A DNA stretch of 64,000 nt from Spiribacter roseus (GTDB lineage Bacteria; Pseudomonadota; Gammaproteobacteria; Nitrococcales; Nitrococcaceae): assembly GCF_002813635.1 (NCBI RefSeq), contig NZ_CP016382.1:868001-932000 (forward strand). The letters are read 5' to 3'. A program made the position numbers and the translations under genes. Under the pieces are notes generated by a model. That model ran no database searches. It saw only the letters and a program-made list of their open reading frames with translations, and was not told the origin of the DNA. Position 1 is the first letter of the stretch, and every line of letters begins with the position of its first letter. Shown piece by piece: positions 9,640 through 58,621 of this stretch.

Positions 9640-9665
9640 TCGATGCTTCCTCTGTCCGTGTCAGA

Positions 9666-10463: not shown

Positions 10464-10568
10464 GTCTGTAAACTCCTTGTGGTGGGTTGAGCCTCCATGC
10501 ACCCGCAACTGACAACCTCGAGGGCACCCAGCCAGTCGTGTCGGTACATGTGTGGTTTATGGATTGAA

Positions 10569-10597
10569 TTGCCCAAATGGCGCGGCATTTATACCAT
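10569..10597 (+). promoter_or_regulatory. Candidate sigma-70 promoter of map
   Basis: On the plus strand, TTGCCC (10569-10574) and TACCAT (10592-10597) are separated by 17 nt, each matching four of six consensus positions. It overlaps the rpsB promoter face to face, and transcription would start about 25 nt upstream of the map ATG. The hexamers are moderate. Confidence 0.4.
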
Positions 10598-10616
10598 AGG
10601 CGGCTCACAGCGACAA
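10588..10616 (-). promoter_or_regulatory. Sigma-70 promoter of rpsB
   Basis: On the minus strand, TTGTCG (-35, 10611-10616) and TATAAA (-10, 10588-10593) are separated by exactly 17 nt. A TGG immediately precedes the -10, giving an extended -10. This predicts an rpsB leader of about 115-120 nt, which could hold the autoregulatory S2 binding site known in enterobacteria; I did not identify that structure. Confidence 0.75.
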
Positions 10617-10629
10617 TTTGAAAGCCCTC

Positions 10630-11388: not shown

Positions 11389-11389
11389 C

Positions 11390-20258: not shown

Positions 20259-20380
20259 GGTGCCCGTTCTAACCGTTGTCGTTGCAGAGTAACGGCCGCC
20301 GCGCTAACAGCAAAGGCGCAGGCACCGAATGCCGGCCGTGGCCGGGCAATCGGTGGGCTGCGCCCTGCCGAAGAAGCGGA

Positions 20381-20399
20381 AAGGCCGCGATGCGGCTTT
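20381..20399 (-). terminator. Weak hairpin after dnaK
   Basis: Directly at the dnaK stop, the minus strand reads GCCGC-ATC-GCGGC followed by CTTT. The 5-bp GC stem with a very short T run could attenuate transcription from dnaK into dnaJ. The rest of the dnaK-dnaJ gap holds no obvious promoter. The loop is only 3 nt and the T tract is poor. Confidence 0.3.
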
Positions 20400-22401: not shown

Positions 22402-22981
22402 CCTCGTCGCCTGAATCCGCCGGGGCTTTTGCCACGATCACCCGCGCGGGGCGAAGCAGGCGGTCGCCAAGGCGATAGCCCTTCTGGATCACGCTGACCA
22501 CGGTGTTGGGTGCCTGCTCGTCGGTTTCCTGCGCGGTCATGGCCTCATGCCGCTCGGGATCAAAGCGCTCACCCTGGGGGTTGATGGCCTCGATGTTGAA
22601 TTTCTCGAGGGCCTGGTCAAACATCCGCAGCGTCAGTTCCGAGCCCTCGGCCAGCCGTGCGGCATCGGCGTTTTCATCCCGCGCCGCCTGCAGGCCCATC
22701 TCGAGACTGTCCTTGACCGCGAGCAGCTCGCCGGCGAGCTTTTCCAGCGACTGCTGGCGGGCCGCCGCCACGTCCTTTTCAGCGCGCCGGCGCAGGTTTT
22801 CCATCTCGGCCCGGGCGCGCAGAAATTCACTCCAGTTCTCCTGGGCACGCGCCTCGGCCGCCTCAAGTTCGGCGCTGAGCGTTTCGGCGGTCTTCTCCTG
22901 GCTTTCCTCCGCGGCGCCGTTATCCGCCGCGTCCTGCTCCTGCGGACCGTTCCCGGCCGGCTTGTCGTCTTCGTCTGTCAT
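22397..22981 (-). CDS. grpE: Nucleotide exchange factor GrpE
   Basis: Releases ADP from DnaK. It is 194 aa from the ATG at 22981 (MTDEDDKPAGNG); an upstream in-frame extension lies in the hrcA-grpE gap. A long charged helix (about residues 35-90, with RARAEMENLRRRAEKD) precedes the beta-domain, which contains the signature FDQALEKFNIEAINPQGERF and VVSVIQKGYRLGDRLLRPARV. It is 44 nt downstream of hrcA. Confidence 0.97.
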   Translation of the reverse strand: MTDEDDKPAGNGPQEQDAADNGAAEESQEKTAETLSAELEAAEARAQENWSEFLRARAEMENLRRRAEKDVAAARQQSLEKLAGELLAVKDSLEMGLQAARDENADAARLAEGSELTLRMFDQALEKFNIEAINPQGERFDPERHEAMTAQETDEQAPNTVVSVIQKGYRLGDRLLRPARVIVAKAPADSGDEA

Positions 22982-44695: not shown

Positions 44696-45733
44696 ATGAC
44701 GGGGCTTGCCGAAGCCGCCCGCCATCGCCTCGCAGTGGGTCGCCGTGCCGCGCCCGGTGTCGGGATCAGTCTGGCGGTGGCCATGGTGGCGCTGTTCCTC
44801 GCCAGCCACTACGGCGCGCCGGTGATGTTGTTTGCCCTGCTGCTGGGGATGGCGCTGGGGTTTCTGCGCGAGCGCGAGCGTGTGGCGCCTGGCATCCGCC
44901 TGAGCACCCGAACGATTCTGCGGGTGGGCGTGGCGCTGCTCGGCGCCCGCCTGACGCTAACCGATCTCACTGCACTGGGTCTGACCCCGGTGCTGATCAC
45001 GCTGGCGACGGTCGCCGCCACCCTGCTTGTCGGTTTTGGGGTGGCGCGCGCACTGGGAATGGGCGGGCGTTTCGCTGTGCTATCCGCCGGAGCCGTGAGT
45101 ATCTGTGGGGCCTCGGCGGCCCTCGCGATCGCCTCGACCCTGCCGCGGGATGAGCGACTGCACCTCGACACGGTTCTGGTGGTGGTCAGCGTCAGCACCC
45201 TGAGTACCGTCGCGCTGGTGATCTATCCCATCCTCGCGGCGCAACTGGGCATGGACGACGCCCAGGCGGGCGTGTTTCTAGGGGCCACGATCCATGATGT
45301 GGCCCAAGTTGTCGGTGCGGGTTTCAGTGTCTCTGAGACCTCGGGCGAGACGGCGACCATCATCAAGCTGCTGAGAGTGGCGCTGCTGCTGCCGCTGGTG
45401 CTGGGACTGGCGCTGGTGTTGCGCGAGCGCGGTAACCGTCATCTTCCCGGGCAGCCGCACAAGCGCCCCGCCCCACCGATTCCCGGGTTTCTGCTGGGGT
45501 TCCTCGCCCTCGTGGGCATCAATAGTCTGGGTTGGCTGCCAGCGCCCTTGATGGCGGTGCTGGCGACCACTTCCACCGCCTGCCTCATTACCGCCGTGGC
45601 GGCGCTCGGCATCCAGAGCCAGATCGGCGAAATGCTCAAGCTTGGCTGGCGCCCGATCACGGTGATCGTGCTGCAGACCCTGTTCATGGGGGCAATGGGC
45701 GCGATGCTGGTCGGCTATTGGCTCCCCGCCTGA
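44696..45733 (+). CDS. Putative sulfate exporter family (COG2855/YeiH) protein
   Basis: A 345-aa membrane protein of UPF0324 from the ATG at 44696 (MTGLAEAARH); the open frame upstream is unlikely coding. Family landmarks are PVMLFALLLGMALGF, RVGVALLGARLTL, SAGAVSICGASAALAIAS and GATIHDVAQVVGAG. The family name, putative sulfate exporter, comes from genes next to sulfonate catabolism; transport has not been shown for most members. Its last 19 nt overlap the glycerate kinase end on the other strand. Confidence 0.92.
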   Translation: MTGLAEAARHRLAVGRRAAPGVGISLAVAMVALFLASHYGAPVMLFALLLGMALGFLRERERVAPGIRLSTRTILRVGVALLGARLTLTDLTALGLTPVLITLATVAATLLVGFGVARALGMGGRFAVLSAGAVSICGASAALAIASTLPRDERLHLDTVLVVVSVSTLSTVALVIYPILAAQLGMDDAQAGVFLGATIHDVAQVVGAGFSVSETSGETATIIKLLRVALLLPLVLGLALVLRERGNRHLPGQPHKRPAPPIPGFLLGFLALVGINSLGWLPAPLMAVLATTSTACLITAVAALGIQSQIGEMLKLGWRPITVIVLQTLFMGAMGAMLVGYWLPA

Positions 45734-47031
45734 GCACGAGGCTCAGCAATAAGAATAGCGCGCAGATCATTGACATTGGTGAGGGTGGGACCGGTCATCA
45801 CCAGATCGCCCAGGGCGGCAAAAAAGCCGTAGGCATCATTGTTGGCGAGCCGATCCCGGGGGTTGACGCCCATCCGACGCGCGCGGGCGAGCGTATCCGG
45901 GGTGACCATCGCCCCGGCATTGTCCTCGCTGCCATCAATGCCGTCACTGTCGCCGGCCAGGGCATGGACCGTTTCGGCTCCCTCAAGGGCAATGGCAAGC
46001 CCGAGCAGGAACTCGAGATTGCGGCCGCCCCGCCCTTCACCCCGCACGGTCACCGAGGTCTCGCCGCCGGACAGCAGCACACAGGGCGGCGCGGCGGGTT
46101 GATGATGACGGGCGACCTGTCGGGCAATGCCGGCCATGACGCGACCCACCTCACGCGCCTCGCCTTCGATGGCATCGCCCAGAATGATGGGCCTGATGCC
46201 CTGCGAGCGAGCGTATTCCGCCATGGCCTCCAGTGATGTCTGCGAGCGGGCCACAATGATGTTCTCCACAGCATCGAGCCGCGGATCACCGGGTTTGGGC
46301 GTTTCCTGCCCGGATGACTCAAGGTGATGGCGCACGGCCGTGGGTGGATCGATGCCAAATCGATCCAGAATCGCTCGTGCATCGCCGAAAGTGGTCGGAT
46401 CTGCGACCGTCGGACCCGAGGCAATCGTCGCCGGATCATCGCCGGCGACATCCGAGATCATCAGGGTGGTCACGCGGGCGGGCCAGGCCGCGACGGCGAG
46501 TTGCCCGCCTTTGACGGCCGACAGATGCTTCCTGACGCAGTTGATATCGGCGATGTCAGCACCCGACCTGAGGAGCGCTGACGATACTGCCTGCTGATCC
46601 GCCATTGTCAGACCGTCGGCCGGCAAGGTGAGCAGCGCAGAGCCGCCGCCGGAGAGCAGACACAGCAGCTGATCCCCCTCCCCCAATTCATGGGCGATGT
46701 CGACCATCCGTTGAGCGGCCTCACGGCCGGCTGCATCCGGTAGCGGATGGGATGCCTCGATGCACTCGATGCTCTCGAGCATCGCCCCATGGCCATAACG
46801 GGTGACAACCAGTCCTTGCGGCGCCGGCACGTCCGGTGGCCACGCCTTCTCCAGCGCCTGCGCCATTGCCGCGGCGGCCTTCCCCGCACCGATGACCCGG
46901 GTCCGCCCGTCTTTACTGATCGGCGGAAAATGCGGCGCAACCACGCGGGCTGGATGCGCGGCAGCCACACCCGCATCAAATAGACGACGGAGCGCATCCA
47001 TCGGATGGCTGATCTCAGGCCCATTGATCAT
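45715..47031 (-). CDS. Glycerate 2-kinase (GckA/MOFRL family)
   Basis: A 438-aa type II glycerate kinase, phosphorylating D-glycerate to 2-phosphoglycerate. The N-terminal DUF4147 domain has VIGAGKAAAAMAQALE (about residues 46-61) and LLCLLSGGGSALLTLP; the C-terminal MOFRL domain has LLSGGETSVTVRGEGRGGRNLEF. The first ATG (47031) has no good ribosome-binding site, and MDALRRLFDAG 30 nt downstream is a possible start. It could link serine-, glyoxylate- or sugar-acid-derived glycerate to glycolysis. Confidence 0.9.
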   Translation of the reverse strand: MINGPEISHPMDALRRLFDAGVAAAHPARVVAPHFPPISKDGRTRVIGAGKAAAAMAQALEKAWPPDVPAPQGLVVTRYGHGAMLESIECIEASHPLPDAAGREAAQRMVDIAHELGEGDQLLCLLSGGGSALLTLPADGLTMADQQAVSSALLRSGADIADINCVRKHLSAVKGGQLAVAAWPARVTTLMISDVAGDDPATIASGPTVADPTTFGDARAILDRFGIDPPTAVRHHLESSGQETPKPGDPRLDAVENIIVARSQTSLEAMAEYARSQGIRPIILGDAIEGEAREVGRVMAGIARQVARHHQPAAPPCVLLSGGETSVTVRGEGRGGRNLEFLLGLAIALEGAETVHALAGDSDGIDGSEDNAGAMVTPDTLARARRMGVNPRDRLANNDAYGFFAALGDLVMTGPTLTNVNDLRAILIAEPRAQAGSQ

Positions 47032-47342: not shown

Positions 47343-48074
47343 CTACTGCCCCCTGGCACGCAACGCGCCCCGACCGCCATCGACCGGGAACACCTGACCG
47401 GTGATCCAGCTGGCGTCGGTGCCCAGCAGGAATGCCGCCATCGCGGCGGAGTCGTCGGCGACGCCGACGCGTTTGAGCGGATGACTGGCCGCGAGCGCCT
47501 CGGCCATCTTCTCGTTGGACAGCAGCGAATCGGCGATTTCAGTCTGGCTGATGCTGGGCGCAATGCAGTTCACCCGGACCGAGGGCGCCAGATCGGCCGC
47601 CAGCGACCGGGCCAGGGCCTCGACGCCGCCTTTAGCCGCGGCAATCACGGCATGGTTGCCAAAGCCCTGTCCGGCCGCCACCGTCGAGAACATCACGACG
47701 CTGCCCCGCGCCTTCTGCAGTGCCGGTGCGGCGGCCTGCACCGCGATTGCCGCTCCCACGGTGTTCAGCCGGTAGCAGTCAAGCAGGTCTTTCTCGGTCA
47801 GGTTCTTGAGGGGCTTGAGGACGATATTGCCGACACAGTAAGCCAGTCCGGCAAGCCCTTCATCGGACTGCGCGCTTTGGACCGCCGCCTTGATCGAATC
47901 GGTATCCAGCACATCGCAGGCGAACACGTCGGCCCCGAGGGCCTGCGCCAGCGGCAGGATGGTCTGCGGATCACGCGCCGAGAGCACGAGCGGCTGACCC
48001 GCGGCGGCCAGGCGGCGGGCGAGTGCTTCGCCGATCCCGCCGCGGGCACCCATTATAAGCGTCGGTGCGGTCAT
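47343..48074 (-). CDS. SDR-like protein lacking the catalytic Tyr
   Basis: A 243-aa short-chain dehydrogenase fold. The cofactor motif is MGARGGIGEALARRL (residues 8-22), the catalytic Ser lies in VVMFSTVAAGQGFG and the Lys in IAAAKGGVEALARS. The Tyr of YxxxK is replaced by Ile (HAVIAAAKGG). C-terminal TGQVFPVDGGRGAL is normal. The protein may bind NAD(P) and act as a regulator, or use another acid. It is 10 nt upstream of msrAB on the same strand direction and ends near the 69-aa gene. Confidence 0.85.
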   Translation of the reverse strand: MTAPTLIMGARGGIGEALARRLAAAGQPLVLSARDPQTILPLAQALGADVFACDVLDTDSIKAAVQSAQSDEGLAGLAYCVGNIVLKPLKNLTEKDLLDCYRLNTVGAAIAVQAAAPALQKARGSVVMFSTVAAGQGFGNHAVIAAAKGGVEALARSLAADLAPSVRVNCIAPSISQTEIADSLLSNEKMAEALAASHPLKRVGVADDSAAMAAFLLGTDASWITGQVFPVDGGRGALRARGQ

Positions 48075-48084: not shown

Positions 48085-49224
48085 CTATTCAACTTCGCTG
48101 ATCAGTGAGCCATAGCCCGCCGCTTCCATCTCCTCCAGCGGGATGAACTCAAGCGCGGCGGAGTTCATGCAGTAGCGCAGACCCGTTGGTTCCGGCCCGT
48201 CGGTGAAGACATGGCCCAGGTGCGAATCGGCATGCTGACTGCGGATCTCAGTCCTTGTCATGAACAGGCTGTTGTCCTCGCGTTCAACCACCGCGTCCTC
48301 GCGGATGGGTTGCGTAAAGCTCGGCCAGCCGGTGTCAGAGCGGTACTTGTCACGCGACGAGAAAAGCGGCTCGCCCGAGACCACATCCACATAGATGCCG
48401 GGGCGCTTCTCGTCGTAATACGGATTGTCATAGGCGGGCTCAGTGCCGTCTTCCTGGGTCACGTAATACTGCTCATCGGTCAGACGCGACTGCAGGAGCG
48501 CTTCAGGGGGCTTTTCGAAGGTCGCCGGATCGAACGCTTCCACCGATGGAGAACCTGACTGGCGCTGCGGCTCATACTCGGAGAAATCCACTGACTGATC
48601 ATCGCCCCAGATCTCTTCGATGAACTGATAACGCCCGGAATTGAATGTATAGAGCCGGTAGCGCACCGGCTTTTCCTTGTAGTAGTCCTGATGACGGGCC
48701 TCGGCCTCGTAGAACGCGTCAAACGGGACTACTTCGATTCTGACCGGCTCGTCATAGCGGCCGGAGGCCTCGAGCGCCTCAATTGACGCCTCGGCGGCGC
48801 GTTTCTGGGCCTCATCATGGTAAAAGATCGCCGGGCGATACTGCTTGCCACGATCAACGTACTGGCCATTGATGTCGGTCGGGTCCGCCGTCCGCCACAG
48901 GCCTTCGAGCAGACCTTCGTAGGTGATTCTGGTGGGGTCGTAGTAAACCTGCACCGCCTCGGTGTGATCCGTACGGCCGCCGGAGACTTCCTCGTAGGTG
49001 GGATCCTGCACCTCGCCGCCGCTGTAGCCGGAAACGGCCTCGACCACGCCGGGCACGTTCTTCTCGTAGTACGCCTCAACGCACCAGAAGCACCCGCCCG
49101 CGAATGTCGCGACGGCCAGATCCGGATCATCCGGGGCAAAGCCCGAGTCGCTGGTCTGGGCACTGGCCACTGCCGCCAGCCCCAGACCGATAAAAGTGGC
49201 AATGCTTATTGAAAAGGCTTTCAT
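48085..49224 (-). CDS. msrAB: Periplasmic MsrA-MsrB methionine sulfoxide reductase fusion
   Basis: A 379-aa secreted repair enzyme from the ATG at 49224 ([13 protein letters not shown]). Residues 1-22 form a signal peptide (ending ASAQ). The MsrA domain (about 35-195) has the catalytic [13 protein letters not shown]. The MsrB domain (about 230-365) has GWPSFTQPI, the HLGHVF motif and catalytic [11 protein letters not shown]. The CxxC pairs that bind structural zinc in many MsrB proteins are absent. Reducing power would come from a periplasmic thiol pathway. The order MsrA-MsrB is as in PilB/MsrAB fusions. Confidence 0.95.
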
Positions 49225-49322
49225 GGCTTCCCTTGTCGTCCCGCCGGTGAAGGCAATGGCTGAGTATCCCATACGACATCGCGGAAGCCGATGAATTCAC
49301 GCCGCGGCCCGCCGGATGGGCG

Positions 49323-51053
49323 TCAGCGCAGCAGCCGGCAGACGTCGGCGCCCTCGCGCTGGCAGGCATCACACAGCGGCGCAGTCTCAAATACCGCGGC
49401 AATGGCATCTCCGGCCCGACTGAACAGGTTCTGCTCGCCAATCCGGCTGCTCAGCACCGGATGGCGTAACAACCGGAGGGCGTCGTCCTTGAACCCGCAA
49501 AGCCATAGCCCACCCCCGCGATCGCGCATGCGCTCGGTTTCCTGGGCCAGCATTTCGGCGGCGGCCAGATCGACCCGCTCGATCGCGCTGCCTTCAATGA
49601 TGACATGAGAATAGCCGCGGTCGCAGGCCGCCCACAGGCCCTCGCGCACGTGGTCCAGCGATCCGAAGAACAGCGGACCATCAACCCGCAGGATCAGCAC
49701 TTGCGGGCACTCCGCCAGTCCGCGTTTGTGGGCGTTCCGCAGCGGTCGCCCGGGCCGATCGGTCATGGGCACGACGCTGACCAGGCGGGGTCGGGCGCTG
49801 TGCTTGAGAAACAGGAGCAGAGACAGGAAAACGCCCACGTAAATGGCAAACTCGAGTCCCAGGAACAATGTGGCGAGCACCGTCACCGCAAGAATCGTGG
49901 TCTCCTCGCGGCTCGCCCGGACGATGTCGCGCAGGCGATGCCAGTCGATCAGGTTCCACGCAATCACGAACACCACCGCGGCCATCGCCGGCATGGGCAG
50001 ATACCCGGTGACATCCGGGAACCAGACAATCACCGCCAGCACGAACCCGGCTGCAAAAATACCGGCAATCGGTGTTCTCGCGCCGGCGTCGTAGTTGGCG
50101 CCGGTACGAGTGAACGACCCCGAAGCCGCATAGCACGAGAACAGACTGCCGAGGAGATTGGAGAGGCCCTGGCCGATGAACTCCTGACTCCCGTCGATGC
50201 GCTGGTGCGACCGCATACCCACGGCCTTGGCAATCGCCACCGCCTCGATCAGTGCAATCATGGCGACGGCCAACGCGCCGGATGCCAGCTCAGGCATGCG
50301 CTCGAAGGCGATGAGATCGAACGACGGGGGTGGCAGCGCCCCGGGGGTCGCACCAACCATCTGCACGCCCGCGGCGGCGCCGCCTGAGAGCGCACCGACC
50401 CCCGTACCCACCGCCATGGCGCTGAGCAGGACCGGCCAGCGCGGGCGATAGGCGCGAACCAGCAGCGCCGTGGCAAGCGTGACACCACCGATGATCACGG
50501 CCTGCGGCTCGGTCGCCGGCAGCGCGCCACTGATCGCCCGCAGGCGATCGACCAGTCCATAGCCAGCCTCCAGGCGGATGCCCAGAAAGTGATGGACCTG
50601 ACTGACCGCAATCACCACGGCCGCTCCGGCGGTAAACCCCACCACCACCGTGTGCGGGATGAAGTTGACCAGCGTTCCCACCCGGGCGATCCCCAGCATC
50701 AGCTGGATCACACCGACCATGAAGGTCAACGTCAGCACGTATGAGAGAAACGCCGGATGCTCGGGCGGGACGATGCCACTGACCACGCTGAACACCACAA
50801 TGGAGATCGCCGCAGTCGGCCCTGACACGAGGTGATGCGATGAGCCGAACAGCCCGGCAATGACCGGCGGGATGATCGCGGTATAAAGCCCGTACTGGGC
50901 TGGAAGGCCGGCGATGAGGGCATACGCCACCCCCTGGGGCAGGACAATGATCGCACCGGTCAGCCCGGCGCGCAGGTCGGCAAGCATCTGTCGGCGTCCG
51001 AGGCCGGGCCAGGCGCCGATGAAGGGCAGCAGTCGGATCAGGCGGTCAGGCAT
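49323..51053 (-). CDS. SulP-family anion transporter in LacI-linked operon
   Basis: A 576-aa SLC26/SulP transporter. The N-terminal signature is LPQGVAYALIAGLPAQYGLY; about 11 hydrophobic segments reach residue 410. The STAS domain (about 435-560) contains VLILRVDGPLFFGSL. The C-terminal tail has CDACQREGADVCRLLR with three Cys. Its start overlaps the end of the enolase-superfamily gene by 16 nt, so it belongs to the aldehyde dehydrogenase-enolase-SulP operon. It may import a substrate or export sulfite/sulfate; direction cannot be read. Confidence 0.92.
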   Translation of the reverse strand: MPDRLIRLLPFIGAWPGLGRRQMLADLRAGLTGAIIVLPQGVAYALIAGLPAQYGLYTAIIPPVIAGLFGSSHHLVSGPTAAISIVVFSVVSGIVPPEHPAFLSYVLTLTFMVGVIQLMLGIARVGTLVNFIPHTVVVGFTAGAAVVIAVSQVHHFLGIRLEAGYGLVDRLRAISGALPATEPQAVIIGGVTLATALLVRAYRPRWPVLLSAMAVGTGVGALSGGAAAGVQMVGATPGALPPPSFDLIAFERMPELASGALAVAMIALIEAVAIAKAVGMRSHQRIDGSQEFIGQGLSNLLGSLFSCYAASGSFTRTGANYDAGARTPIAGIFAAGFVLAVIVWFPDVTGYLPMPAMAAVVFVIAWNLIDWHRLRDIVRASREETTILAVTVLATLFLGLEFAIYVGVFLSLLLFLKHSARPRLVSVVPMTDRPGRPLRNAHKRGLAECPQVLILRVDGPLFFGSLDHVREGLWAACDRGYSHVIIEGSAIERVDLAAAEMLAQETERMRDRGGGLWLCGFKDDALRLLRHPVLSSRIGEQNLFSRAGDAIAAVFETAPLCDACQREGADVCRLLR

Positions 51054-52195
51054 AGCGTCTCCCAGTCACGCAACGCCGCCCCATCGGGCACCACTCCAAG
51101 ACCGGGGCCCGATGGCAGTTCCATGGCGCCGTTGGCAATACCCGGGAAGGGTGTCGCCAGCTGCTCGCGCAGCGGGTTGGGGTTGCAATCAACCTCAAGC
51201 CGGCCGTCTCCGCCCACGGCTGCCAGGGCATGCGCCGATGCGATCAGGCCAATGCCACCGCCCAGATAGTGCGGGCAGTAACGCCGTCCGGCCTCAAGCA
51301 CCCGCCGGGCGATGGGCAAGCACGCACTGAACCCGCCCCACTTGGCCAGATCCGGTTGGATCACCGATAGCAATCCGGCTTCCGCCGCCGCGTCGAACCC
51401 CGCGACCGAGGCCAGATTTTCGCCACCGGCCAGCGGGATGGCGGAGCACGCGGCCAGCGCCCGCCAGTCAGCCACCGGGGTGTCCACCGGCATGGGCTCC
51501 TCAAGCCATTCAAGACCGCTGCCCCGCAGATCGGCCACCATCGCCCGGGCTTCCGGAAGTGACCAGGCCTGATTGGCATCGGCCATCAGATGTTCCTGAT
51601 CGCCGCGCTCGGCGAGCAGCGCCGCGATCGTGCGTCGGTCCTGACCGGCCTCAAACCCGATCTTGACCTTGAAGGCATCAAAGCCCGACGCCCGGGCCCG
51701 CTGCAGGGTGGTGACCGCGCCGTGCGGATTGATGCCGCTGGCATAGACCGGTATCCGGGAGGCGACCGGTCCACCGGCGAGGACCTCGCCAAGCGGGCGG
51801 CCCTGACGGCGAGCGGCCAGATCCCAGAGCGCGATATCAACACCGGCCAGGACCTGATCAAGCGGCCCGAACTCACGCGTTTGCAGCGCGAGTACACGGG
51901 TCGCCTGCACCAGAAACCGCTGTGCGGCGGACGGATCATCGAAGGATCGGCCGACCAGCTGCGGCGCGACCACTTCGGCGGCCAGACGGGCCCGGTGCTC
52001 GGCCCCGCAGACCGGGTAGTTGCACCAGATTTCGCCCCAGCCGGAGGCCCCCTCGTGATCGGTCACCCCAACCAGTACACTAGGCCGATCGGTCATGGTC
52101 CCGAATGAGGTCCGCACGGGTTCTTCAATGGGCGCCCGCAGGACATGCAGGGCCACCTGCTCGATCCGCCCTGTGGTCAGCGCCTGCATGCCCAT
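51038..52195 (-). CDS. Mandelate racemase-type enolase superfamily enzyme
   Basis: A 385-aa enolase-superfamily member. The N-terminal capping domain ends near residue 120 and the barrel carries the KxK motif in FKVKIG (about 178-181). Metal ligands are Asp in MADANQAW, Glu in WLEEPMP and Glu in AGGENLAS. A His-Asp dyad (Asp in VIQPDLAKWGG, His in CPHYLGGGIG) marks the MR subgroup. These enzymes take an alpha-proton from a carboxylate and racemise or eliminate a beta-group, usually water. It overlaps the ALDH gene by 1 nt and SulP by 16 nt. The substrate is unknown; see findings. Confidence 0.88.
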   Translation of the reverse strand: MGMQALTTGRIEQVALHVLRAPIEEPVRTSFGTMTDRPSVLVGVTDHEGASGWGEIWCNYPVCGAEHRARLAAEVVAPQLVGRSFDDPSAAQRFLVQATRVLALQTREFGPLDQVLAGVDIALWDLAARRQGRPLGEVLAGGPVASRIPVYASGINPHGAVTTLQRARASGFDAFKVKIGFEAGQDRRTIAALLAERGDQEHLMADANQAWSLPEARAMVADLRGSGLEWLEEPMPVDTPVADWRALAACSAIPLAGGENLASVAGFDAAAEAGLLSVIQPDLAKWGGFSACLPIARRVLEAGRRYCPHYLGGGIGLIASAHALAAVGGDGRLEVDCNPNPLREQLATPFPGIANGAMELPSGPGLGVVPDGAALRDWETLCLTA

Positions 52196-53643
52196 CAGAT
52201 GCCGCCGGGCGACTGCAGGTACGCCGAATGCTCGGTGGTGTAGAAGTTGACCGCCGACGGACCCACCGAGTAAGCGCCCACGCCTGAGTGGCGAATGCCG
52301 CCAAACGGCATGTGATCATCAGGGATCGTGCCGTGATTGACGTGCAGCATGCCGTTCTGGCTTTCGTCGAGAAACCGCTGGATCAGCGCCGAATCGTTGG
52401 AGAAAAGCGACGAGGTCAGCCCGAAGTCGACATCATTGAGCAAGCGCATGGCCGTATCGAATTCCGTATAACGCATGACGCTGATGACCGGGCCGAAGAC
52501 TTCTTCGCGGGCGATCTCCATGGACGGTTCCACGTCGCGCAGGACGGTCGCCGGGTAGAAAAAACCATCGGGGGCACTGTCAACCTGGATCGCCCTGCCA
52601 CCGGCCACTACGTGGGCACCCGCCTCGACGGCGCGCTCGACAAAGCCGCTGACCCGTTGGAACTGATCCTGATTGATGAGCGGGCCCAGCGTCGTCGCCG
52701 GATCGATCCCCGCACCGACCACCTGGGCCTTCGCGCGCGCCCTGAGGCCATCGATCACCGCGTCATGCAGGGCGTCGGCGACGATCACACGACTGATGGC
52801 AGTGCAGCGCTGCCCGGCGCATTGGCAAGCCGCGCCAAAAACCTGGTCGAGGCAGCGCTCGAGATCGTCAGTGTCATTGATGACGACCGCGTTTTTGCCG
52901 CCCAGCTCGAGCGACAGTTCGGCAAGATTCTGCGCGGCTGCGGCATAGATCCTGCGGCCGGTTTCCACGGATCCGGTAAACGTCACGCCATCCACCGCGG
53001 CATCGCTGACCAGCGCTGCGCCTACCTCGCCGCCGCCATGGACGATCTGCAGCGCCCCGGCGGGCAGAAATTCCTCCGCCGCCTCGGCGATCAGACAGGC
53101 CGGTGCGGGCGTCAGCTCAGAGGGCTTGAGAATAATGGCATTGCCGTGGGCAAGCGCCGGCGCGATCTTGCGCATGGGCGTGAGGATCGGGAAGTTCCAG
53201 GGGGTGATGGCGGCGATGACGCCGCGCGGCCGACGCAGCACCATGTTGCGGCAATCGGGCTTCTGCGCGGGCATGACCGCGCTATGGCCGCGGACCGCCT
53301 CGCCGGCCATGAACCGCGCCTCGCGCAGCGACTTGCCGGTTTCACCACGGGATTCGGCAATGGGTTTTCCCTGCTCGAGCGTGACCGCACGGGCAATGTC
53401 CTCGGTGCGTGCCTCAACGGCATCCAGCAGTGCGACGACACGACGGCTCCGCTCGGCCGGCGGCAACGCCGCCCACTCGGCCTGCCCGCGGCGGGCGGCA
53501 TCCATGGCGGTGCGCAGCCCGGCGGGAGAAGTCGGAGAATAGCGACCCACGCAGGTCCCGGGCGCACTTGGGTCAACCGTTTCAAACACCTCGCCGGTGC
53601 CGGGCTGCCACTCGCCGTTAATGAACGATCCAAAGGTATACAT
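52195..53643 (-). CDS. Aldehyde dehydrogenase
   Basis: A 482-aa NAD(P)-dependent aldehyde dehydrogenase. Key motifs are ITPWNFPILTPMRKIAPAL, FTGSVETGRRI, the catalytic Glu in LELGGKNAVV and the catalytic Cys in CAGQRCTAISRV; the end MPFGGIRHSGVGAYS is typical of semialdehyde-type members. Candidates are sulfolactaldehyde, alpha-ketoglutarate semialdehyde or a related aldehyde. It is the first gene of a three-gene operon, divergent from the LacI-type regulator, and its TATACT -10 sits next to a LacI-type operator. Confidence 0.9.
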   Translation of the reverse strand: MYTFGSFINGEWQPGTGEVFETVDPSAPGTCVGRYSPTSPAGLRTAMDAARRGQAEWAALPPAERSRRVVALLDAVEARTEDIARAVTLEQGKPIAESRGETGKSLREARFMAGEAVRGHSAVMPAQKPDCRNMVLRRPRGVIAAITPWNFPILTPMRKIAPALAHGNAIILKPSELTPAPACLIAEAAEEFLPAGALQIVHGGGEVGAALVSDAAVDGVTFTGSVETGRRIYAAAAQNLAELSLELGGKNAVVINDTDDLERCLDQVFGAACQCAGQRCTAISRVIVADALHDAVIDGLRARAKAQVVGAGIDPATTLGPLINQDQFQRVSGFVERAVEAGAHVVAGGRAIQVDSAPDGFFYPATVLRDVEPSMEIAREEVFGPVISVMRYTEFDTAMRLLNDVDFGLTSSLFSNDSALIQRFLDESQNGMLHVNHGTIPDDHMPFGGIRHSGVGAYSVGPSAVNFYTTEHSAYLQSPGGI

Positions 53644-53667
53644 CAGCTGGACTCCTGTTGATTTCCA

Positions 53668-53691
53668 AGTATAGGGTTGAAAGCGCTAACA
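53668..53691 (-). promoter_or_regulatory. ALDH-operon -10 element and LacI-type operator O1
   Basis: On the minus strand, TATACT (53668-53673) is a good -10 for the ALDH operon. TGAAAGCGCTAACA (53678-53691, plus strand) matches the O2 palindrome TGTTAGCGCTAACA at 12 of 14 positions and lies in the -35/-10 spacer, where repressor binding would block transcription. No strong -35 is seen. The same site is 42 nt before the regulator's ATG, so autoregulation is likely. Confidence 0.75.
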
Positions 53692-53732
53692 TCGCGCTGG
53701 CAAAAAAAGGGCTGTCAGGGAAGCGCCGCGTC

Positions 53733-54758
53733 ATGGACCAACACTCGCCCGTTCGCATGGAGGATGTCGCCCGGGTGGCCGGCGTATCGGCCATCACCGT
53801 CTCGCGGGTCATTCACCATCCCGACAAAGTCGCCGACACCACCCGCGAGCGGGTCCTCGCGGCAATCGAGACCACGGGCTATGTGCCCAATCGGGTCGCC
53901 GGCAGCCTGGCATCCAACCAGACCCGTATCATCGGCGCCCTCGTACCCACCGTGACCAACTCGATCTTTGCCGACACCATCGACGGGTTGACCGACGAAC
54001 TTGGCGCCCAGGGCTACCAGCTGTTGCTGGGCGCAACCGGTTATTCCCTCGGCGAAGAGACCCGGCTGATCAATGCCATCCTGGCTCAGCGCCCCGCCGG
54101 CATTGTCGTCACCGGCCTGCAGCACGAACCGGCCGCAGAAACCCTGCTCCGCGCGGCTCGGATCCCGGTGGTCGAGACCTGGAACGTCGACGGTCGGCCG
54201 ATTGACATGGCTGTCGGGTTTTCCAACTTCAACGCCTGCCACGCGATGGTCGAGCGTCTCGTGGCGCGAGGGGCACGCTGCATCGGTTATGTCGGTGCCC
54301 CGACGCTGGCCAACGACCGTGCCGCCCAGCGCGTTGCCGGTTACCGGGCGGCGGTGACGGCACTGGGGCTGGAAGCCTCGGACTCGCTGATTTACGAAGG
54401 TAAGTTCTCGTTTGCCGCCGGGGCGGGTCGGCTTCGCGACCTGCTGGCCAGCCGGCCGGATGTCGATGCGGTGTTCTTCGGCAACGATATCCTCGCCCTG
54501 GGCGCGCTTTTCGAGTGTCAGCGTCAGGGCATCCGCGTGCCGGCGGATCTGGCGATCGCGGGCTTTGACGATGTGGAGCTGGCCGCCAGTGTCGCCCCGG
54601 CGCTGACCACCGTGCGCATTCACCGCTATGAAATCGGCCGCCAGGCCGCACACAAGATCCTCGAGAGGTTGCAGGGCGATACGACGCCACCCGCCCTGAG
54701 CGATCTGGGGTTCGAGATCATCGAGCGCGAGACCACGCCCGATGGAGGCGCTGACTGA
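53733..54758 (+). CDS. LacI-family transcriptional regulator
   Basis: A 341-aa regulator from the ATG at 53733 (MDQHSPVRMEDVARVAGVS). The LacI helix-turn-helix and hinge run over residues 9-62 (EDVARVAGVSAITVSRVIHH and PNRVAGSLAS). The periplasmic-binding-protein-like sensor domain follows, with GALVPTVTNSIFADTIDG, FFGNDILALGALFECQ and IAGFDDVELA. The three AGCGC-centred palindromes at 53678, 58507 and 58608 are the expected operator type. It is flanked by both candidate target operons. The ligand is unknown; similarity to the gluconate regulator GntR group is general only. Confidence 0.93.
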   Translation: MDQHSPVRMEDVARVAGVSAITVSRVIHHPDKVADTTRERVLAAIETTGYVPNRVAGSLASNQTRIIGALVPTVTNSIFADTIDGLTDELGAQGYQLLLGATGYSLGEETRLINAILAQRPAGIVVTGLQHEPAAETLLRAARIPVVETWNVDGRPIDMAVGFSNFNACHAMVERLVARGARCIGYVGAPTLANDRAAQRVAGYRAAVTALGLEASDSLIYEGKFSFAAGAGRLRDLLASRPDVDAVFFGNDILALGALFECQRQGIRVPADLAIAGFDDVELAASVAPALTTVRIHRYEIGRQAAHKILERLQGDTTPPALSDLGFEIIERETTPDGGAD

Positions 54759-54795
54759 CCGGCCCCACGCGTCGTTACCGTGATGAGGGAAGCTT

Positions 54796-55686
54796 CTAGC
54801 GCTCATCACCCATCGCCGTTTCGCGCAGCGCTGCATACACCGCCGTCCAGTCCTCGGCTCCGCGCCCGTGCCGGCGCGCCAGTCCGTAGGTCTGATGGGC
54901 GACTGCACCGAGCCACGCGGGTGCGTCCAGCTCACCGGCCATGGCCAGTGCCAGGCCCATGTCCTTGTGCGCCAGATCAACCATGAAACCGGGCGTCAGA
55001 TCGCCCTTGAGGACTTTGGCGGGATAGGTCGTTCCCATGTGCCCCTGACCGGCAACCGTGCCAAGCATTACGCTGCGCGCCTGTTCCGGATCGAGACCCG
55101 CACTTTCCGCCATGACCAGAGCTTCGGCGGTCAGCGCATTGAGGGCGATGGACATGTAGTTGTTGACCAGCTTCATCTTCTGGCCGGCCCCTGTCGGACC
55201 GCAGTGGACAATGGTGTCGCCAAGAGGCTCGAGGAACGCCCTGGCCCGGTCGACGTCGCCTGCCTCGCCACCGACCATGATCAACAGTTTGCCGTCGATG
55301 GCATGCTGCGACGACCTTCCAACCGGAGCGTCAACAACGCAGACACCAGCGGCCCGGAGCCGGTGTGCGAACCGCTCGCAATGACTCGGCAGAATGGTGC
55401 TCATGTCGATGTAGAGAGTACCCTCCCGCATCGCGGTCGCCGCACCCTGGTCACCGAAAAGTGCCGACTCCACATGCTCACCCCGGGGCAGCATGGTGAT
55501 CACACAGTCGGCCTCCGAGGCCGCAGCGGCCGCATTGGCGGCCACTTCGGCGCCGTCCTTTTCAAGACCCGCAACCAGTCGCGAGTCTAGATCGAATACG
55601 CGGACCCGATGGCCGGCCCGCAGAAGATTGCGGGCCATGGGCCCACCCATGGTTCCGACACCAATAAAACCGACGCTCGCGCCCAT
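54796..55686 (-). CDS. YihU-like beta-hydroxyacid dehydrogenase (sulfolactaldehyde reductase-like)
   Basis: A 296-aa NAD-dependent dehydrogenase from the ATG at 55686. The cofactor motif is GFIGVGTMGGPMARNLL (residues 6-22). From memory of E. coli YihU, long stretches agree: DAPVGRSSQHAIDG (YihU has PVGRTS, the sulfonate-recognising segment, where GarR and 3-hydroxyisobutyrate dehydrogenases have PVSGG), KLVNNYMSIALNAL with the catalytic Lys, and FMVDLAHKDMG. YihU reduces sulfolactaldehyde to dihydroxypropanesulfonate; the reverse is possible. It is the last gene of the ABC operon. A succinic-semialdehyde or other hydroxyacid role is the alternative. Confidence 0.75.
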   Translation of the reverse strand: MGASVGFIGVGTMGGPMARNLLRAGHRVRVFDLDSRLVAGLEKDGAEVAANAAAAASEADCVITMLPRGEHVESALFGDQGAATAMREGTLYIDMSTILPSHCERFAHRLRAAGVCVVDAPVGRSSQHAIDGKLLIMVGGEAGDVDRARAFLEPLGDTIVHCGPTGAGQKMKLVNNYMSIALNALTAEALVMAESAGLDPEQARSVMLGTVAGQGHMGTTYPAKVLKGDLTPGFMVDLAHKDMGLALAMAGELDAPAWLGAVAHQTYGLARRHGRGAEDWTAVYAALRETAMGDER

Positions 55687-55717
55687 TTTTTTCTCCTTGA
55701 AAAACCGCGAAATTGAA

Positions 55718-55748
55718 CCCGCCACCCCTGCCGATGAGAGGTGGCGGG
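55718..55748 (-). other. Intercistronic hairpin after binding-protein gene
   Basis: A perfect 9-bp stem (CCCGCCACC / GGTGGCGGG, 13-nt loop) between the binding-protein stop and the YihU-like gene. No long T run follows directly. Such hairpins after binding-protein genes often protect the mRNA end and raise its level over downstream genes, or terminate part of the transcripts. Confidence 0.65.
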
Positions 55749-55754
55749 GCGTGC

Positions 55755-56768
55755 TCAACCCGCGATGTTGATGTAGTGCTGCGGATGGAAGTACTCGCTG
55801 GCGCGGCGGGGATTGCTGATGCCTCCCTGCTCGACGAAGAAGTCGGTCACCTGGTCAAGCCATTCAGTGACGGTGCCGTCTTCATACCGCGTGAGCCACT
55901 GGTCGCGTGAGAACACCCGCTGGGCCTGATACTGGGCCTGCAACTGGTCGAGGCTGACATTCGGGTAGTAGTTGGCCTGGAGAATACCGAGTGCCTCTTC
56001 GGGGTTATTGACCAGCATCTCGTTGGCCGGCAGCCAGCCGCGGATGATCTTGTCGATAACCTCGGGATTCTCCTGATAGAAGTCACCGCGTGCGGCCCAG
56101 CCACCCACGATGGCGGCTTCGGGGTAGTACGCTGAGGCGTCCACCAGCATTTTTGCCGACGGCCGCTGCTCGGCCACCTGCACGTTAAAGGGCACCCAGA
56201 GCGCCACCGCCGGCACGGCGCCGGAGATGAACGAGGTGACCGCGTCGCTCATGCGCTGATTGACCAGCTCAACGTCCCGGTCGGGATCGAGTCCCGCCTC
56301 AACCAGGGCACGATGCAGGAACACATGCGCGGTGGTACCCGTGGTGGTGGAGATCTGCTTGCCCTTGAGGTCAGCGATCTCATTGATGCCCGACTCGGGA
56401 TCGGCCCACAGCTGGGCGGTCCCCTCCTCGACGTTGTTGATCAGAAATGCCTCGCCCTGACCGCGCGCTGGGAAGTTTGAGATCACTGCACCGGTCGCGA
56501 GCACATCAAGGCTCCCACCGACCAGCGCCTGGAACAGTTCGAGCCCCGTGGTGAACTGGATGTACTCCATGTTCAGGCCCTGTTCGGCCCACGTTCCCAT
56601 GTGGTCGGCGAGCCAGATATGGCCGTCCACCGCCAGGGTATGCAGGTAGCCAACCCGTACCGTCTGCCCGCTCTGGGCAAACAGGCTGGGTACGCCGCCC
56701 ATGGCATACAGACCGGCACCCGCGCCGATCCCCTTCATGAAGTTTCTGCGACTGCTGGAATAGCTCAT
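55755..56768 (-). CDS. NitT/TauT-type ABC substrate-binding protein, Tat signal
   Basis: A 337-aa periplasmic binding protein of the SsuA/TauA/THI5-like class. The N-terminus SSRRNFMKGIGAGAGLYAMGG is a twin-arginine signal (SRRNFMK), so it is probably exported folded. Family features are VRVGYLHTLAVDGHIWLADHMG, GLELFQALVGGSLDVLATG and the ISTTTGTTAHVFLHRAL loop. GAGGAGAGAG precedes the ATG. Relatives bind taurine, alkanesulfonates, nitrate or aromatic acids; the neighbouring YihU-like enzyme points to a sulfonate. Confidence 0.88.
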   Translation of the reverse strand: MSYSSSRRNFMKGIGAGAGLYAMGGVPSLFAQSGQTVRVGYLHTLAVDGHIWLADHMGTWAEQGLNMEYIQFTTGLELFQALVGGSLDVLATGAVISNFPARGQGEAFLINNVEEGTAQLWADPESGINEIADLKGKQISTTTGTTAHVFLHRALVEAGLDPDRDVELVNQRMSDAVTSFISGAVPAVALWVPFNVQVAEQRPSAKMLVDASAYYPEAAIVGGWAARGDFYQENPEVIDKIIRGWLPANEMLVNNPEEALGILQANYYPNVSLDQLQAQYQAQRVFSRDQWLTRYEDGTVTEWLDQVTDFFVEQGGISNPRRASEYFHPQHYINIAG

Positions 56769-56800
56769 TTCTCTCTCCTCTTGCGGTAATGAGGCGTTTT

Positions 56801-57625
56801 CTACGCCTGTCCTGTTGTTTGTTTCTGCCGCGCCTGACTTTCCTGCGCGGCGTACTCCTGCATCACCAGTTCGCGGACCTCGCTTCGCAGATCAGCAAAG
56901 GCGGCGGAGTCGCGCAGCTCGGCCGTGCGTGGAAACCCGAACGGCACCTCGATGATGCGGCGGATGCGCGACGGGCGTGCGCTGATGACAAGGATCCGGG
57001 AGGACAGATACAGCGCCTCCTCCACCGAATGGGTGATGAGCATCACGGTCTTGCGGACCTCGCCCATCACATTCAGCAGCAGGTCCTGCATTGCGGTCCG
57101 GGTCTGGGCATCGAGCGCGCCGAACGGCTCATCCATCAAAAGGAACTCTGGGTTGACCGCATAGGAACGCGCCAGGGCAAGTCGCTGACGCATCCCCCCG
57201 GAAAGTGTCTTCGGATAGGCCCGGCGGAATTCGCTGAGCCCCATGAGCTCAATGAAATGGTCGACGATCTCCCTGCGCCGGGCATCGGTGACGCGATTGG
57301 CGCGAAGGCGCAGACCGAAGGCAATGTTGTCCTCGACACTCAGCCATGGAAAAACGCCATAGTCCTGGAACATCATGCCGCGTTCCGAACCGGGCCCCTG
57401 AATGGGCTGACCGTCCAGCAGAACCGAGCCGGTGGTTGGCTGCATGAACCCCGCTACCATGTTGAGCATGGTGGTTTTCCCGCAGCCTGATGGTCCGACC
57501 AGCGAGACGAACTCGCCATCCCCGACACCAAAGGAGACATCCTCGGCAACCTGGATCGAGCCATTGTCGGTGTCGAATACCTTGCCGACGTTCTCGAAAC
57601 GGATTCTTTCGTTGTACTGACTCAT
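56801..57625 (-). CDS. NitT/TauT-type ABC transporter ATPase
   Basis: A 274-aa ATPase from the ATG at 57625, preceded by GAGGGGG; an ATG at 57643 that overlaps the permease stop is less well placed. Walker A is VGPSGCGKTTMLN (about residues 42-54), the Q loop MMFQDYGVFPW, the signature LSGGMRQRLALARS and Walker B FLLMDEPFGALD, then ITHSVEEALYLS. It energises the permease encoded just upstream (gap 10 nt). Confidence 0.93.
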   Translation of the reverse strand: MSQYNERIRFENVGKVFDTDNGSIQVAEDVSFGVGDGEFVSLVGPSGCGKTTMLNMVAGFMQPTTGSVLLDGQPIQGPGSERGMMFQDYGVFPWLSVEDNIAFGLRLRANRVTDARRREIVDHFIELMGLSEFRRAYPKTLSGGMRQRLALARSYAVNPEFLLMDEPFGALDAQTRTAMQDLLLNVMGEVRKTVMLITHSVEEALYLSSRILVISARPSRIRRIIEVPFGFPRTAELRDSAAFADLRSEVRELVMQEYAAQESQARQKQTTGQA

Positions 57626-57635
57626 TCCGGCCCCC

Positions 57636-58451
57636 TCAGTCATTGCGTTCCTGCCAGACAAGCGCACGGCGGGTGAGTCGCCGCAGGGCGACGTCCATGG
57701 CCAGCGCGATAAACCCGATGCAGATGATCCCCATGTAGATGGTGTCGAGCTGGAAATACGCGGACGCATCCTGGATCACCGCACCAAGTCCCTGCTGAGC
57801 GGCGACCAGCTCGGCGGCCACCAGGGTTGCCCACGCCACACCCAGCGCCACGCGGAGTGCTGTCAGGGCATGCGGCACGGCCAGGGGAATAATCACCTTG
57901 CGGAATATTTCGAAATCACTCGCCCCGAGGGTCTGGGCGACCCGGATATACAGCGGTGAAATCTGACTGATCCCCTCGTACATCACGATGACGCTGGCAA
58001 AGAACGCCGCGTAGAACAGGATGATCACTTTGGCGGATTCGCCGATCCCGAAGTAAACGATGACCAGAGGGATCAGCGCGATCGGTGGGAGGGCGCGGAA
58101 AAAGTTGATCAATGGGTCCATGAACGACCGCAGGCCCTTGTACCAGCCCAGCAGGAAACCGACAGGCACGGCACAGGCGGTGCCAAGCATCACTCCAAGA
58201 AAAACGCGCTGGGTCGACATGTACATGTCCAGTGCCAGATCGCCCCCGATCAGCATGTCCCAGAGCCGCGTGGCGACCTGCACCGGCGTCGGAATCAGCG
58301 AGGCCTCGAAAAAGCCGGAGTAGCGAACGCCATACCAGAGCGCGAGAATCAGCGCCCAGGGCCCCAGAAAATGGGCGATGCGACGTGCAGTCGCTCCAAG
58401 GCGGCCGAATGGCCGTCGGGACGGGCGGGGCGTGGACGATTCAGCGCCCAT
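57636..58451 (-). CDS. NitT/TauT-type ABC transporter permease
   Basis: A 271-aa inner-membrane permease with about six hydrophobic segments. The EAA-loop region is RVAQTLGASDFEIFRKVIIPLAVPHALTALR, typical of SsuC/TauC-like permeases. It is the first gene of the operon permease-ATPase-binding protein-YihU-like enzyme. Two LacI-type operators lie 56 and 157 nt upstream. Confidence 0.92.
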   Translation of the reverse strand: MGAESSTPRPSRRPFGRLGATARRIAHFLGPWALILALWYGVRYSGFFEASLIPTPVQVATRLWDMLIGGDLALDMYMSTQRVFLGVMLGTACAVPVGFLLGWYKGLRSFMDPLINFFRALPPIALIPLVIVYFGIGESAKVIILFYAAFFASVIVMYEGISQISPLYIRVAQTLGASDFEIFRKVIIPLAVPHALTALRVALGVAWATLVAAELVAAQQGLGAVIQDASAYFQLDTIYMGIICIGFIALAMDVALRRLTRRALVWQERND

Positions 58452-58491: not shown

Positions 58492-58521
58492 TTTATCAGG
58501 TCGCAATGTTAGCGCTAACAA
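58492..58521 (-). promoter_or_regulatory. Candidate promoter of the ABC operon
   Basis: On the minus strand, TTGTTA (58516-58521) and GATAAA (58492-58497) are separated by 18 nt. The -35 overlaps operator O2, so a bound repressor would exclude RNA polymerase. Each hexamer matches four of six consensus positions. Confidence 0.45.
58507..58520. promoter_or_regulatory. LacI-type operator O2
   Basis: TGTTAGCGCTAACA, a perfect 14-bp palindrome with the AGCGCT centre common in LacI-family operators. It overlaps the -35 of the candidate ABC-operon promoter. O1 and O3 carry close matches. Confidence 0.85.
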
Positions 58522-58607: not shown

Positions 58608-58621
58608 TGTTAGCGCAAACA
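58608..58621. promoter_or_regulatory. LacI-type operator O3
   Basis: TGTTAGCGCAAACA, differing from O2 at one position. It is centred 101 bp upstream of O2 relative to the ABC operon, a distance compatible with DNA looping by a tetrameric repressor. It could also serve the divergent DUF411 gene, whose ATG is 101 nt away. Confidence 0.8.

Follow-up and report, generated by a model that had tools for sequence, protein, structure and literature searches.

The window analysed here, a stretch of 64,000 nucleotides covering positions 868001-932000 of the genome of the halophilic bacterium Spiribacter roseus (1.93 Mb, one contig, 99.93% complete), contains two operons on the minus strand. The first, tauC-tauB followed by genes for a substrate-binding protein and a HIBADH-family dehydrogenase, begins with a predicted transporter of the taurine/sulfonate type. 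The second encodes an aldehyde dehydrogenase (ALDH), a mandelate racemase (MR)-type member of the enolase superfamily and a SulP transporter. Between them, facing the opposite way, lies a gene for a LacI-family regulator. We propose that these genes serve the use of 2,3-dihydroxypropane-1-sulfonate (DHPS), a common C3 sulfonate, with the MR-type enzyme as a putative 3-sulfolactate sulfite lyase. The features, in window coordinates, are these:

57636..58451, minus strand: TauC/SsuC-type ABC permease (NCBIfam TauC 171.8 bits, below the cut-off of 342; BPD_transp_1)
56801..57640, minus strand: TauB/SsuB-type ABC ATPase, start codon uncertain (ntrCD, SaoA and TauB models 232-238 bits, all below cut-off)
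55755..56768, minus strand: NMT1/SsuA-type substrate-binding protein, overlapping the HIBADH frame (TIGR01728 SsuA_fam 1.5e-37; PF09084)
54796..55758, minus strand: YihU-like dehydrogenase (HIBADH), predicted to convert DHPS to sulfolactaldehyde; start probably near 55683 (best structure 6sm7; PVGR motif)
53733..54758, plus strand: LacI-family regulator (PF00356, PF13377; GntR-type LacI model 342.3 bits, below the cut-off of 400)
52195..53643, minus strand: ALDH, predicted to convert sulfolactaldehyde to 3-sulfolactate (PF00171 8.8e-142)
51038..52195, minus strand: MR-type enolase-superfamily enzyme, predicted 3-sulfolactate sulfite-lyase (PF02746, PF13378)
49323..51053, minus strand: SulP-family anion transporter with STAS domain (TIGR00815 380.3 bits against a cut-off of 380.45; PF00916, PF01740)
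58507..58520, no strand: LacI operator TGTTAGCGCTAACA, 0 mismatches, upstream of tauC
58608..58621, no strand: LacI operator, 1 mismatch, upstream of tauC
53678..53691, no strand: LacI operator, 2 mismatches, between ALDH and LacI

Neighbouring genes within both operons overlap or nearly so; the ALDH and MR genes share a single base, and the start of SulP lies within the MR gene's 3' end. Open reading frames and family profiles place every gene claimed by an earlier, sequence-only reading where that reading had it, on the minus strand, with nearly all of SulP falling outside the span it had drawn. The MR gene occurs in two of 14 genomes of the genus Spiribacter, the source genome included, so the cluster is accessory. 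The second carrier (G380:C6:326205-327356, in contig coordinates) is locus L017; relatives' loci are given L numbers throughout. SulP occupies the same position in L017 and L018.

The two operons, tauCBA-HIBADH and ALDH-MR-SulP, form one LacI regulon. The palindromic operator TGTTAGCGCTAACA has four sites in the whole genome at up to two mismatches, and three of them lie in this cluster, which gives substance to the 'regulon' that the sequence-only reading had supposed. A reversed-pattern control of the scan gave two matches per strand against four for the operator, so two-mismatch sites are weak when taken alone. The site between ALDH and LacI is also found in L017 (two mismatches), L018 (one) and L070 (none). 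When up to three mismatches were allowed, the operator appeared at corresponding positions in L017 and L018. L070 has one copy, between LacI and ALDH, and the Devosia locus L043 has two, one of them 82 bases before the MR match. Three genes downstream of SulP, a glycerate kinase (45715-47031), an SDR (47343-48074) and an MsrA/B-like gene (48085-49272), are not counted as members because no operator with two or fewer mismatches lies near them.

How might the regulon's products act together? The TauABC-type transporter would import DHPS. The YihU-like dehydrogenase, working in the oxidative direction, would convert it to sulfolactaldehyde, and ALDH would carry sulfolactaldehyde on to 3-sulfolactate. 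The MR-type enzyme would bind the carboxylate of 3-sulfolactate on Mg2+ and pass the C2 proton to K178 or to H309 of an H309-D282 dyad. The resulting carboxylate-stabilized enediolate would expel sulfite from C3, giving enolpyruvate and then pyruvate. Sulfite or its oxidation product might leave the cell via SulP; a role for SulP as sulfite or sulfate exporter is a guess. We put the probability that this is a LacI regulon for complete DHPS use, with the MR-type enzyme as 3-sulfolactate sulfite lyase, at a little under 60%. The substrate, the direction, the stereochemistry, sulfite as leaving group and its export are what we infer.

The sequence-only reading had proposed the same route. It gains from the kinship of the dehydrogenase to YihU, from the lack of any SuyB, Xsc or CuyA-family protein above cut-off, from relatives whose MR genes have HpsN-like or sulfolactaldehyde dehydrogenase-like neighbours, and from a negative control. 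Its substrate and its sulfite-eliminating step stay predictions, and SuyAB-type genes in some relatives complicate it. The gene context of relatives is the strongest evidence in the case. Chemically, the last step asks little: sulfite, unlike hydroxide, needs no general acid to depart. 3-Sulfolactate has no beta-hydroxyl, which closes dehydration to the enzyme and leaves racemization or sulfite loss as MR-type outcomes. Sulfite loss is favoured since no other known lyase was found in the source genome. To our knowledge, no member of the MR subgroup expels sulfite.

The window protein carries the pattern of that subgroup in full: the KxK motif, D-x-N, two glutamates, the H-D dyad and a C-terminal glutamate. 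This catalytic and metal-binding set (K176, K178, D206, N208, E232, E259, D282, H309 and E334, which we take to map onto mandelate racemase numbering) is present in all 89 rows of a clade alignment from which L006, 38% identical, was left out. To what it shares with the subgroup the clade adds residues of its own. N59, Q105, W244, K285, W286, D336 and N338 are likewise invariant in the 89 rows, and H67 is kept in 87. In six outgroup MR proteins, K285 occurs twice, D336 once, and N59, Q105, W244, W286 and N338 not at all. The strict conservation of these clade-specific residues argues for a single small substrate. The nearest solved protein is 3ddm (394.6 bits), named only as putative.

The dehydrogenase was called YihU-like from its sequence, and comparison with proteins of solved structure agrees. 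Its best solved relative is 6sm7, the sulfolactaldehyde reductase YihU of Escherichia coli, at 280.5 bits; the next scores 165.3. It also passes the NCBIfam cut-off for sulfolactaldehyde 3-reductase, narrowly (354.6 against 348). The substrate and the oxidative direction are predictions. In the alignment the window protein reads PVGRSS where YihU reads PVGRTS and tartronate semialdehyde reductase PVSGGE; both other HIBADH alignments shown have PVSGG. PVGR is found in the window protein and in all four close homologues (L017, L018, L043 and L070), and four distant HIBADHs of 30-34% identity (L028, L036, L063 and L067) showed no PV[GSA] motif within the spans that matched. We assume that the arginine of PVGR is a sulfonate contact in YihU.

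ALDH alone says little, since its solved matches at E 1e-80 are phenylacetaldehyde, unspecified aldehyde and succinate-semialdehyde dehydrogenases. It has Arg at the position of Arg171 of RlGabD and Gln at that of Arg289, the two residues proposed to bind the sulfonate; His/Asn pairs are seen in other known enzymes (available text of PMC10599462). Import of the 'TauT type' stands at the level of the transporter family and no finer: the binding protein scores 129.4 bits against SsuA_fam, below the cut-off of 163.5, and its matches to solved structures, SsuA-type and taurine-binding, are weak.

What surrounds the gene in other organisms? Relatives were drawn from 10 of 16 plasmid matches and from the best 80 loci of at least 551 genome stretches (at least 551 of 594 matched stretches encode a relative at E 1e-3), and 29 labelled gene families were searched by tblastn to map the neighbourhoods. 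Setting (a), with TauABC, a YihU-like dehydrogenase, LacI, ALDH and MR, is that of the window, L017, L018 and L070, the first three with SulP; L043 has ALDH, LacI, YihU-like and MR genes without TauABC. Setting (b) pairs a GMC oxidoreductase with an SsuA-type binding protein in 21 of 80 loci, mostly as GMC-TauABC-GntR-MR in Burkholderiales. Setting (c) joins a sulfatase to GMC and ALDH (15 of 80). In setting (d), from Shinella, a sugar ABC transporter, PfkB, a LacD-type aldolase, ALDH, SDR and MR precede a TSUP/TauE exporter; partly similar runs occur in other Rhizobiaceae, in Aurantimonadaceae and in Variovorax (L085). Setting (e) combines a TTT transporter, TauE and MR (L007, L068, L091, and L051 by Pfam), and setting (f), in Alcanivoracaceae, TRAP, ALDH, GMC, GntR and MR (L072, L082, L084). 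Setting (g) is that of the Desulfobacteraceae locus L022: a HisD homologue, an SDR, a zinc alcohol dehydrogenase, MR and TTT. A HisD homologue and an SDR also stand ahead of GntR-MR in L026, and in Paracoccus seriniphilus (L010) a run of alcohol dehydrogenase, SDR, HisD and TRAP genes lies 6.6 kb from MR.

Several of these neighbours resemble characterized sulfonate enzymes. The HisD homologue of L022, the one that was compared with structures, scores 585.6 bits against sulfopropanediol 3-dehydrogenase (8v35) and 242.1 against the best histidinol dehydrogenase; it is 59% identical to that of L010. The data statement of a structure paper gives 8WWF as HpsO, 8WWD as HpsP and 8WWE as HpsN. The L022 SDR is nearest to HpsO (8wwf, 259.5 bits) by a thin margin over two other SDRs (253.4 and 249.2), and the HpsP-like alcohol dehydrogenase of L010 scores 451 bits against 8wwd, with 121 for the next. 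In Shinella L011, ALDH, SDR, MR and the TSUP exporter form one run. Its ALDH matches 8c54 at 908.7 bits (next 667.4), an entry listed as succinate semialdehyde dehydrogenase that we take to be RlGabD. Calling this cluster 'sulfo-EMP' would go beyond resemblance: its aldolase is far from YihT (70 bits) and best matches 8tnf (492 bits). In the Sulfitobacter locus L007, the TauE and MR genes overlap, with a TTT transporter nearby. 3-Sulfolactate would be the one metabolite common to the dehydrogenase, sulfoglycolytic and direct-uptake settings.

A quick tree of 96 rows, including six outgroup rows, places the window protein in a set of 24 rows with SH-aLRT support of 99 (L021 and L026, whose matched spans contain stops, and spans of fewer than 330 residues were excluded). 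The same set holds L022 with its HpsN, L010, the Shinella ALDH-TauE rows, the Sulfitobacter TauE row, and L018 and L043 with their YihU-like genes, so the neighbourhoods that speak most clearly for sulfolactate belong to the same part of the tree as the window protein. Most GMC-TauABC and sulfatase rows form a separate set of 52 rows (support 99), with exceptions that include L075, L096, L024 and L009. The YihU-ALDH setting is not confined to one place in the tree, L070 lying outside the 24-row set.

Is such company peculiar to this clade? We set the 50 clade loci that span 15 kb or more against 20 control MR-superfamily genes taken as 19 kb stretches. The controls came from 18 genomes (17 of relatives and the source genome) and were hand-picked among the PF13378 matches listed, clade members being excluded by position. 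An SsuA-type binding protein, TauE, SulP, a sulfatase, a formylglycine-generating enzyme (FGE) or an HpsN-like HisD within 8.5 kb of MR counted as an organosulfur marker. At least one is present at 34 of 50 clade loci and none of 20 controls (Fisher p 4.5e-8, a value that, like those below, ignores kinship among loci that are not independent). Marker queries came partly from clade loci. These loci were excluded from single-feature counts; the composite figure above includes them. Removing the four loci from which marker queries were taken gives 30/46 against 0/20 (p 1.8e-7), and removing every query-supplying locus gives 29/42 against 0/20 (p 6.2e-8).

Among single features, GMC is found at 29/50 clade loci against 2/20 controls, GntR at 34/50 against 0/20, SsuA-type proteins at 21/50 against 0/20, tauC at 21/50 against 1/20 and sulfatases at 11/48 against 0/20 (p 0.015). 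There is no significant difference for ALDH (15/50 against 5/20) or HIBADH (7/50 against 0/20, p 0.08). TauE, SulP, FGE, PfkB, LacD and HisD are too rare to be compared singly, and TauE is under-detected, its copy in L051 being seen by Pfam and missed by tblastn. One TctC query was out of frame. Three of the 20 controls (L122, L125 and L128) gave no MR match with the queries used, and control L112 has tauB and tauC matches. An alcohol-oxidizing gene accompanies 24 of 29 tau-type loci and 11 of 21 TTT loci. The five tau-type loci that lack one are L032, L060 and L073, on contigs of 3-6 kb, and L059 and L087, which are not short.

In its available text, a 2024 paper lists SuyAB, Xsc and CuyA as sulfolactate routes (PMC11382572), two more than the sequence-only reading, which named SuyAB alone. 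The available text of a 2026 review gives SuyAB (PMC12890257). The absence of SuyAB, asserted from the locus, extends to the whole source genome: there is no match to PF04295 (SuyB/UxaA), a family that 5 of 14 control genomes do have. For Xsc the best score in the source genome, 236.5 bits, is below the cut-off of 676.4, as is that for TIGR01275, the broader family to which we take CuyA to belong (25.4 against 289.4). PF04295 was tested in the genomes of 34 of the 80 loci. It was not found in eight (L017, L018, L026, L070, L072, L082, L083 and L084), all genomes of unstated completeness and several of them metagenome-assembled genomes (MAGs). L017, L018 and L070, which share the order TauABC-HIBADH-LacI-ALDH-MR, are all among the eight.

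A number of observations weigh against sulfite elimination from 3-sulfolactate. The other 26 of the 34 genomes do have a PF04295 protein. Those of L022, L076 and L033 carry an SlcC-ComC-SuyB-like arrangement in which the SuyB-like gene adjoins a D-2-hydroxyacid dehydrogenase and an Ldh_2 gene, and that of L055 has a pair of SAF-domain (SuyA-like) and SuyB-like genes. Twice such a gene shares a contig with MR: in L033 (SuyB-type gene 9515-9889, MR 19490-20578, about 10 kb apart) and in L057 (PF04295 gene 22545-22919, MR 10853-11974, about 11 kb). In those relatives it would be unsafe to take MR for the sole lyase. In the source genome no SorA-type sulfite dehydrogenase was found above cut-off (21.6 against 24). 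Of the two arginines proposed as sulfonate ligands, the window ALDH lacks one, and its solved matches at E 1e-80 include none named as a sulfolactaldehyde dehydrogenase. NCBIfam types the HpsN-like proteins of L022, L010 and L026 as histidinol dehydrogenase (424-449 bits, cut-off 243.8). Sixteen of the 50 well-covered clade loci have no organosulfur marker. Setting (c), that of the sulfatases, is not accounted for by 3-sulfolactate. In one such GMC-ALDH-MR cluster, from a Burkholderiales MAG (L049:5106-6662), the sulfatase is a choline-sulfatase equivalog (603 bits, cut-off 433), and sulfatases hold the same position in similar loci; sulfonate chemistry needs no sulfatase, which is why these neighbours count against it.

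The SuyB-type genes raise the question of whether the MR-type enzyme might be a sulfolactate racemase, one that leaves the C-S bond intact and either supplies a lyase specific for one enantiomer, such as SuyAB, or keeps S- and R-sulfolactate in balance. Racemization of alpha-hydroxy acids is MR-type chemistry, and the window enzyme retains both catalytic bases. SuyAB is R-specific (available text of PMC12890257 and PMC9594981), and SuyAB-type genes occur in several relatives' genomes, twice some 10 kb from MR. We nevertheless judge a racemase unlikely. The source genome has neither a SuyB-family match nor an Xsc or CuyA-family protein above cut-off, so a racemase alone would make sulfolactate a dead end there. 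PF04295 is also missing from the eight genomes just listed, those with the same gene order included, and in L022, L076 and L033 the genome is already equipped for racemization by SlcC- and ComC-like genes.

The sulfatases suggest another possibility, equally improbable in our estimate: that the enzyme eliminates a different beta-group, so that a sulfated glycerate would lose sulfate, for example, or sulfosuccinate would lose sulfite, and that the window pathway handles a related alcohol. The sulfatase, GMC and ALDH genes of 15 of 80 loci fit this idea, the one sulfatase tested being choline-sulfatase-like, as do the FGEs of some loci. So does L007, where fumarase and succinate-dehydrogenase-like genes face the TauE-MR pair; this is possibly a locus for sulfosuccinate or another sulfonated acid. 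The window regulon itself has no sulfatase, the YihU and HpsN kinships point to C3 sulfonates, and the same clade-specific residues in 89 of 89 rows argue for one small substrate.

An ordinary acid-sugar dehydratase pathway, with the TauABC-like transporter, HIBADH and ALDH acting on a hydroxy acid free of sulfur, is less probable again. The MR subgroup is rich in such dehydratases, IlvD and HpcH genes occur at some clade loci, and the best NCBIfam model for the MR protein is L-talarate/galactarate dehydratase. That match, 102.3 bits, is far below its cut-off of 500; the marker counts of 34/50 against 0/20 and the YihU-type motif of HIBADH also speak against it.

The weakest alternative, a sulfo-sugar-acid dehydratase like the sulfogalactonate dehydratase SfcF of Paracoccus wurundjeri, draws on SfcF being of the same Pfam pair and acting in vitro on a sulfonate (available text of PMC12421959), but we think it very improbable: none of the SfcF-type neighbours (SDR, lactonase, HpcH aldolase, sugar transporter) is among the regulon genes, the SDR downstream having no operator, and in the Chelativorans locus L033, another strain of whose species the same text lists as an SfcF carrier, a second MR gene (27% identical) stands with SDR and HpcH genes, separate from the clade member beside it.

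How does the proposed sulfite lyase compare with known systems? SuyAB, an Fe2+-dependent (R)-sulfolactate sulfolyase of the UxaA/galactarate dehydratase family, turns sulfolactate into pyruvate and sulfite, the net conversion proposed for the MR-type enzyme. The two belong to unrelated Pfam families, the window protein having neither the PF04295/PF20629 large nor the SAF small subunit of SuyAB. SfcF demonstrates that the Pfam pair of the window protein can act on sulfonates, though as a dehydratase that eliminates water and keeps the C-S bond (available text of PMC12421959). Its likely relative in L033 is the separate, distant gene. In Cupriavidus pinatubonensis, the dehydrogenases HpsOPN take DHPS to sulfolactate and SuyAB follows; the window has a YihU-like HIBADH and ALDH instead, with MR in SuyAB's place. 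L022 resembles HpsOPN, with HpsN, an SDR nearest HpsO and a zinc alcohol dehydrogenase directly before MR. DHPS oxidation in Desulfovibrio sp. DF1, by a DHPS dehydrogenase and a sulfolactaldehyde dehydrogenase, uses the dehydrogenase families of the window, PF03446 and PF00171 (available text of PMC10599462), and differs from it in lyase step and transporter.

The literature searched, which leaves aside most subscription papers and preprints, yielded no sulfite-eliminating sulfolactate enzyme of the MR or enolase superfamily. No paper in it pairs 'sulfolactate' with 'mandelate racemase', and those pairing 'sulfolactate' with 'enolase superfamily' look unrelated by title. The available text of an HpsN survey mentions that in some organisms no known sulfolyase gene is adjacent (PMC11382572). 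More tentatively, at just under even odds, the MR clade may be a widespread fourth route of sulfolactate desulfonation, dependent on Mg2+ and free of Fe, thiamine diphosphate (ThDP) and pyridoxal phosphate (PLP). It would serve pathways of DHPS use, sulfoglycolysis and sulfolactate uptake in Pseudomonadota and Thermodesulfobacteriota, perhaps for both enantiomers, and its members would be the first in the enolase superfamily to cleave a C-S bond.

In the sulfur cycle, DHPS and sulfolactate count among the major currencies. If the new lyase family is real, many genomes could be re-read as sulfite-releasing, and a leaving group would be added to a superfamily that is a textbook case of enzyme evolution. 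The sulfite-lyase reading can be tested with one protein.

Some further observations concern single loci. The plasmid of Sulfitobacter sp. THAF37 (L007; 390-1562 and 8775-10657) encodes a 3-sulfinopropanoyl-CoA desulfinase (NCBIfam 635 bits, cut-off 600) about 7 kb from TauE-MR. In two Rhizobiaceae loci (L013:11983-20586 and L015:11927-20515), arylsulfatases, FGE and a complete TauABC lie downstream of MR-TauE, which suggests sulfate-ester use beside a sulfonate-type cluster. The MR gene of L015 (Rhizobium sp. CC-CFT758, 10001-11102) is in two pieces, by frameshift or assembly error; adjoining sulfatase matches are split too. In the quick tree, the MR of L065, on a contig titled Akkermansia muciniphila, groups with Comamonadaceae, and that of L060, titled Bordetella parapertussis, stands with a beta-proteobacterium apart from the Bordetella rows; both may be mis-binned or mislabelled. 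The gene directly downstream of SulP (48085-49272) looks by eye like a fused MsrA-MsrB, and a gene of similar length holds that place in L017. The source genome has two TauE-family genes outside the cluster, one about 1.8 kb past the end of the window (G000:C1:933763-934467) and the other at 1860601.

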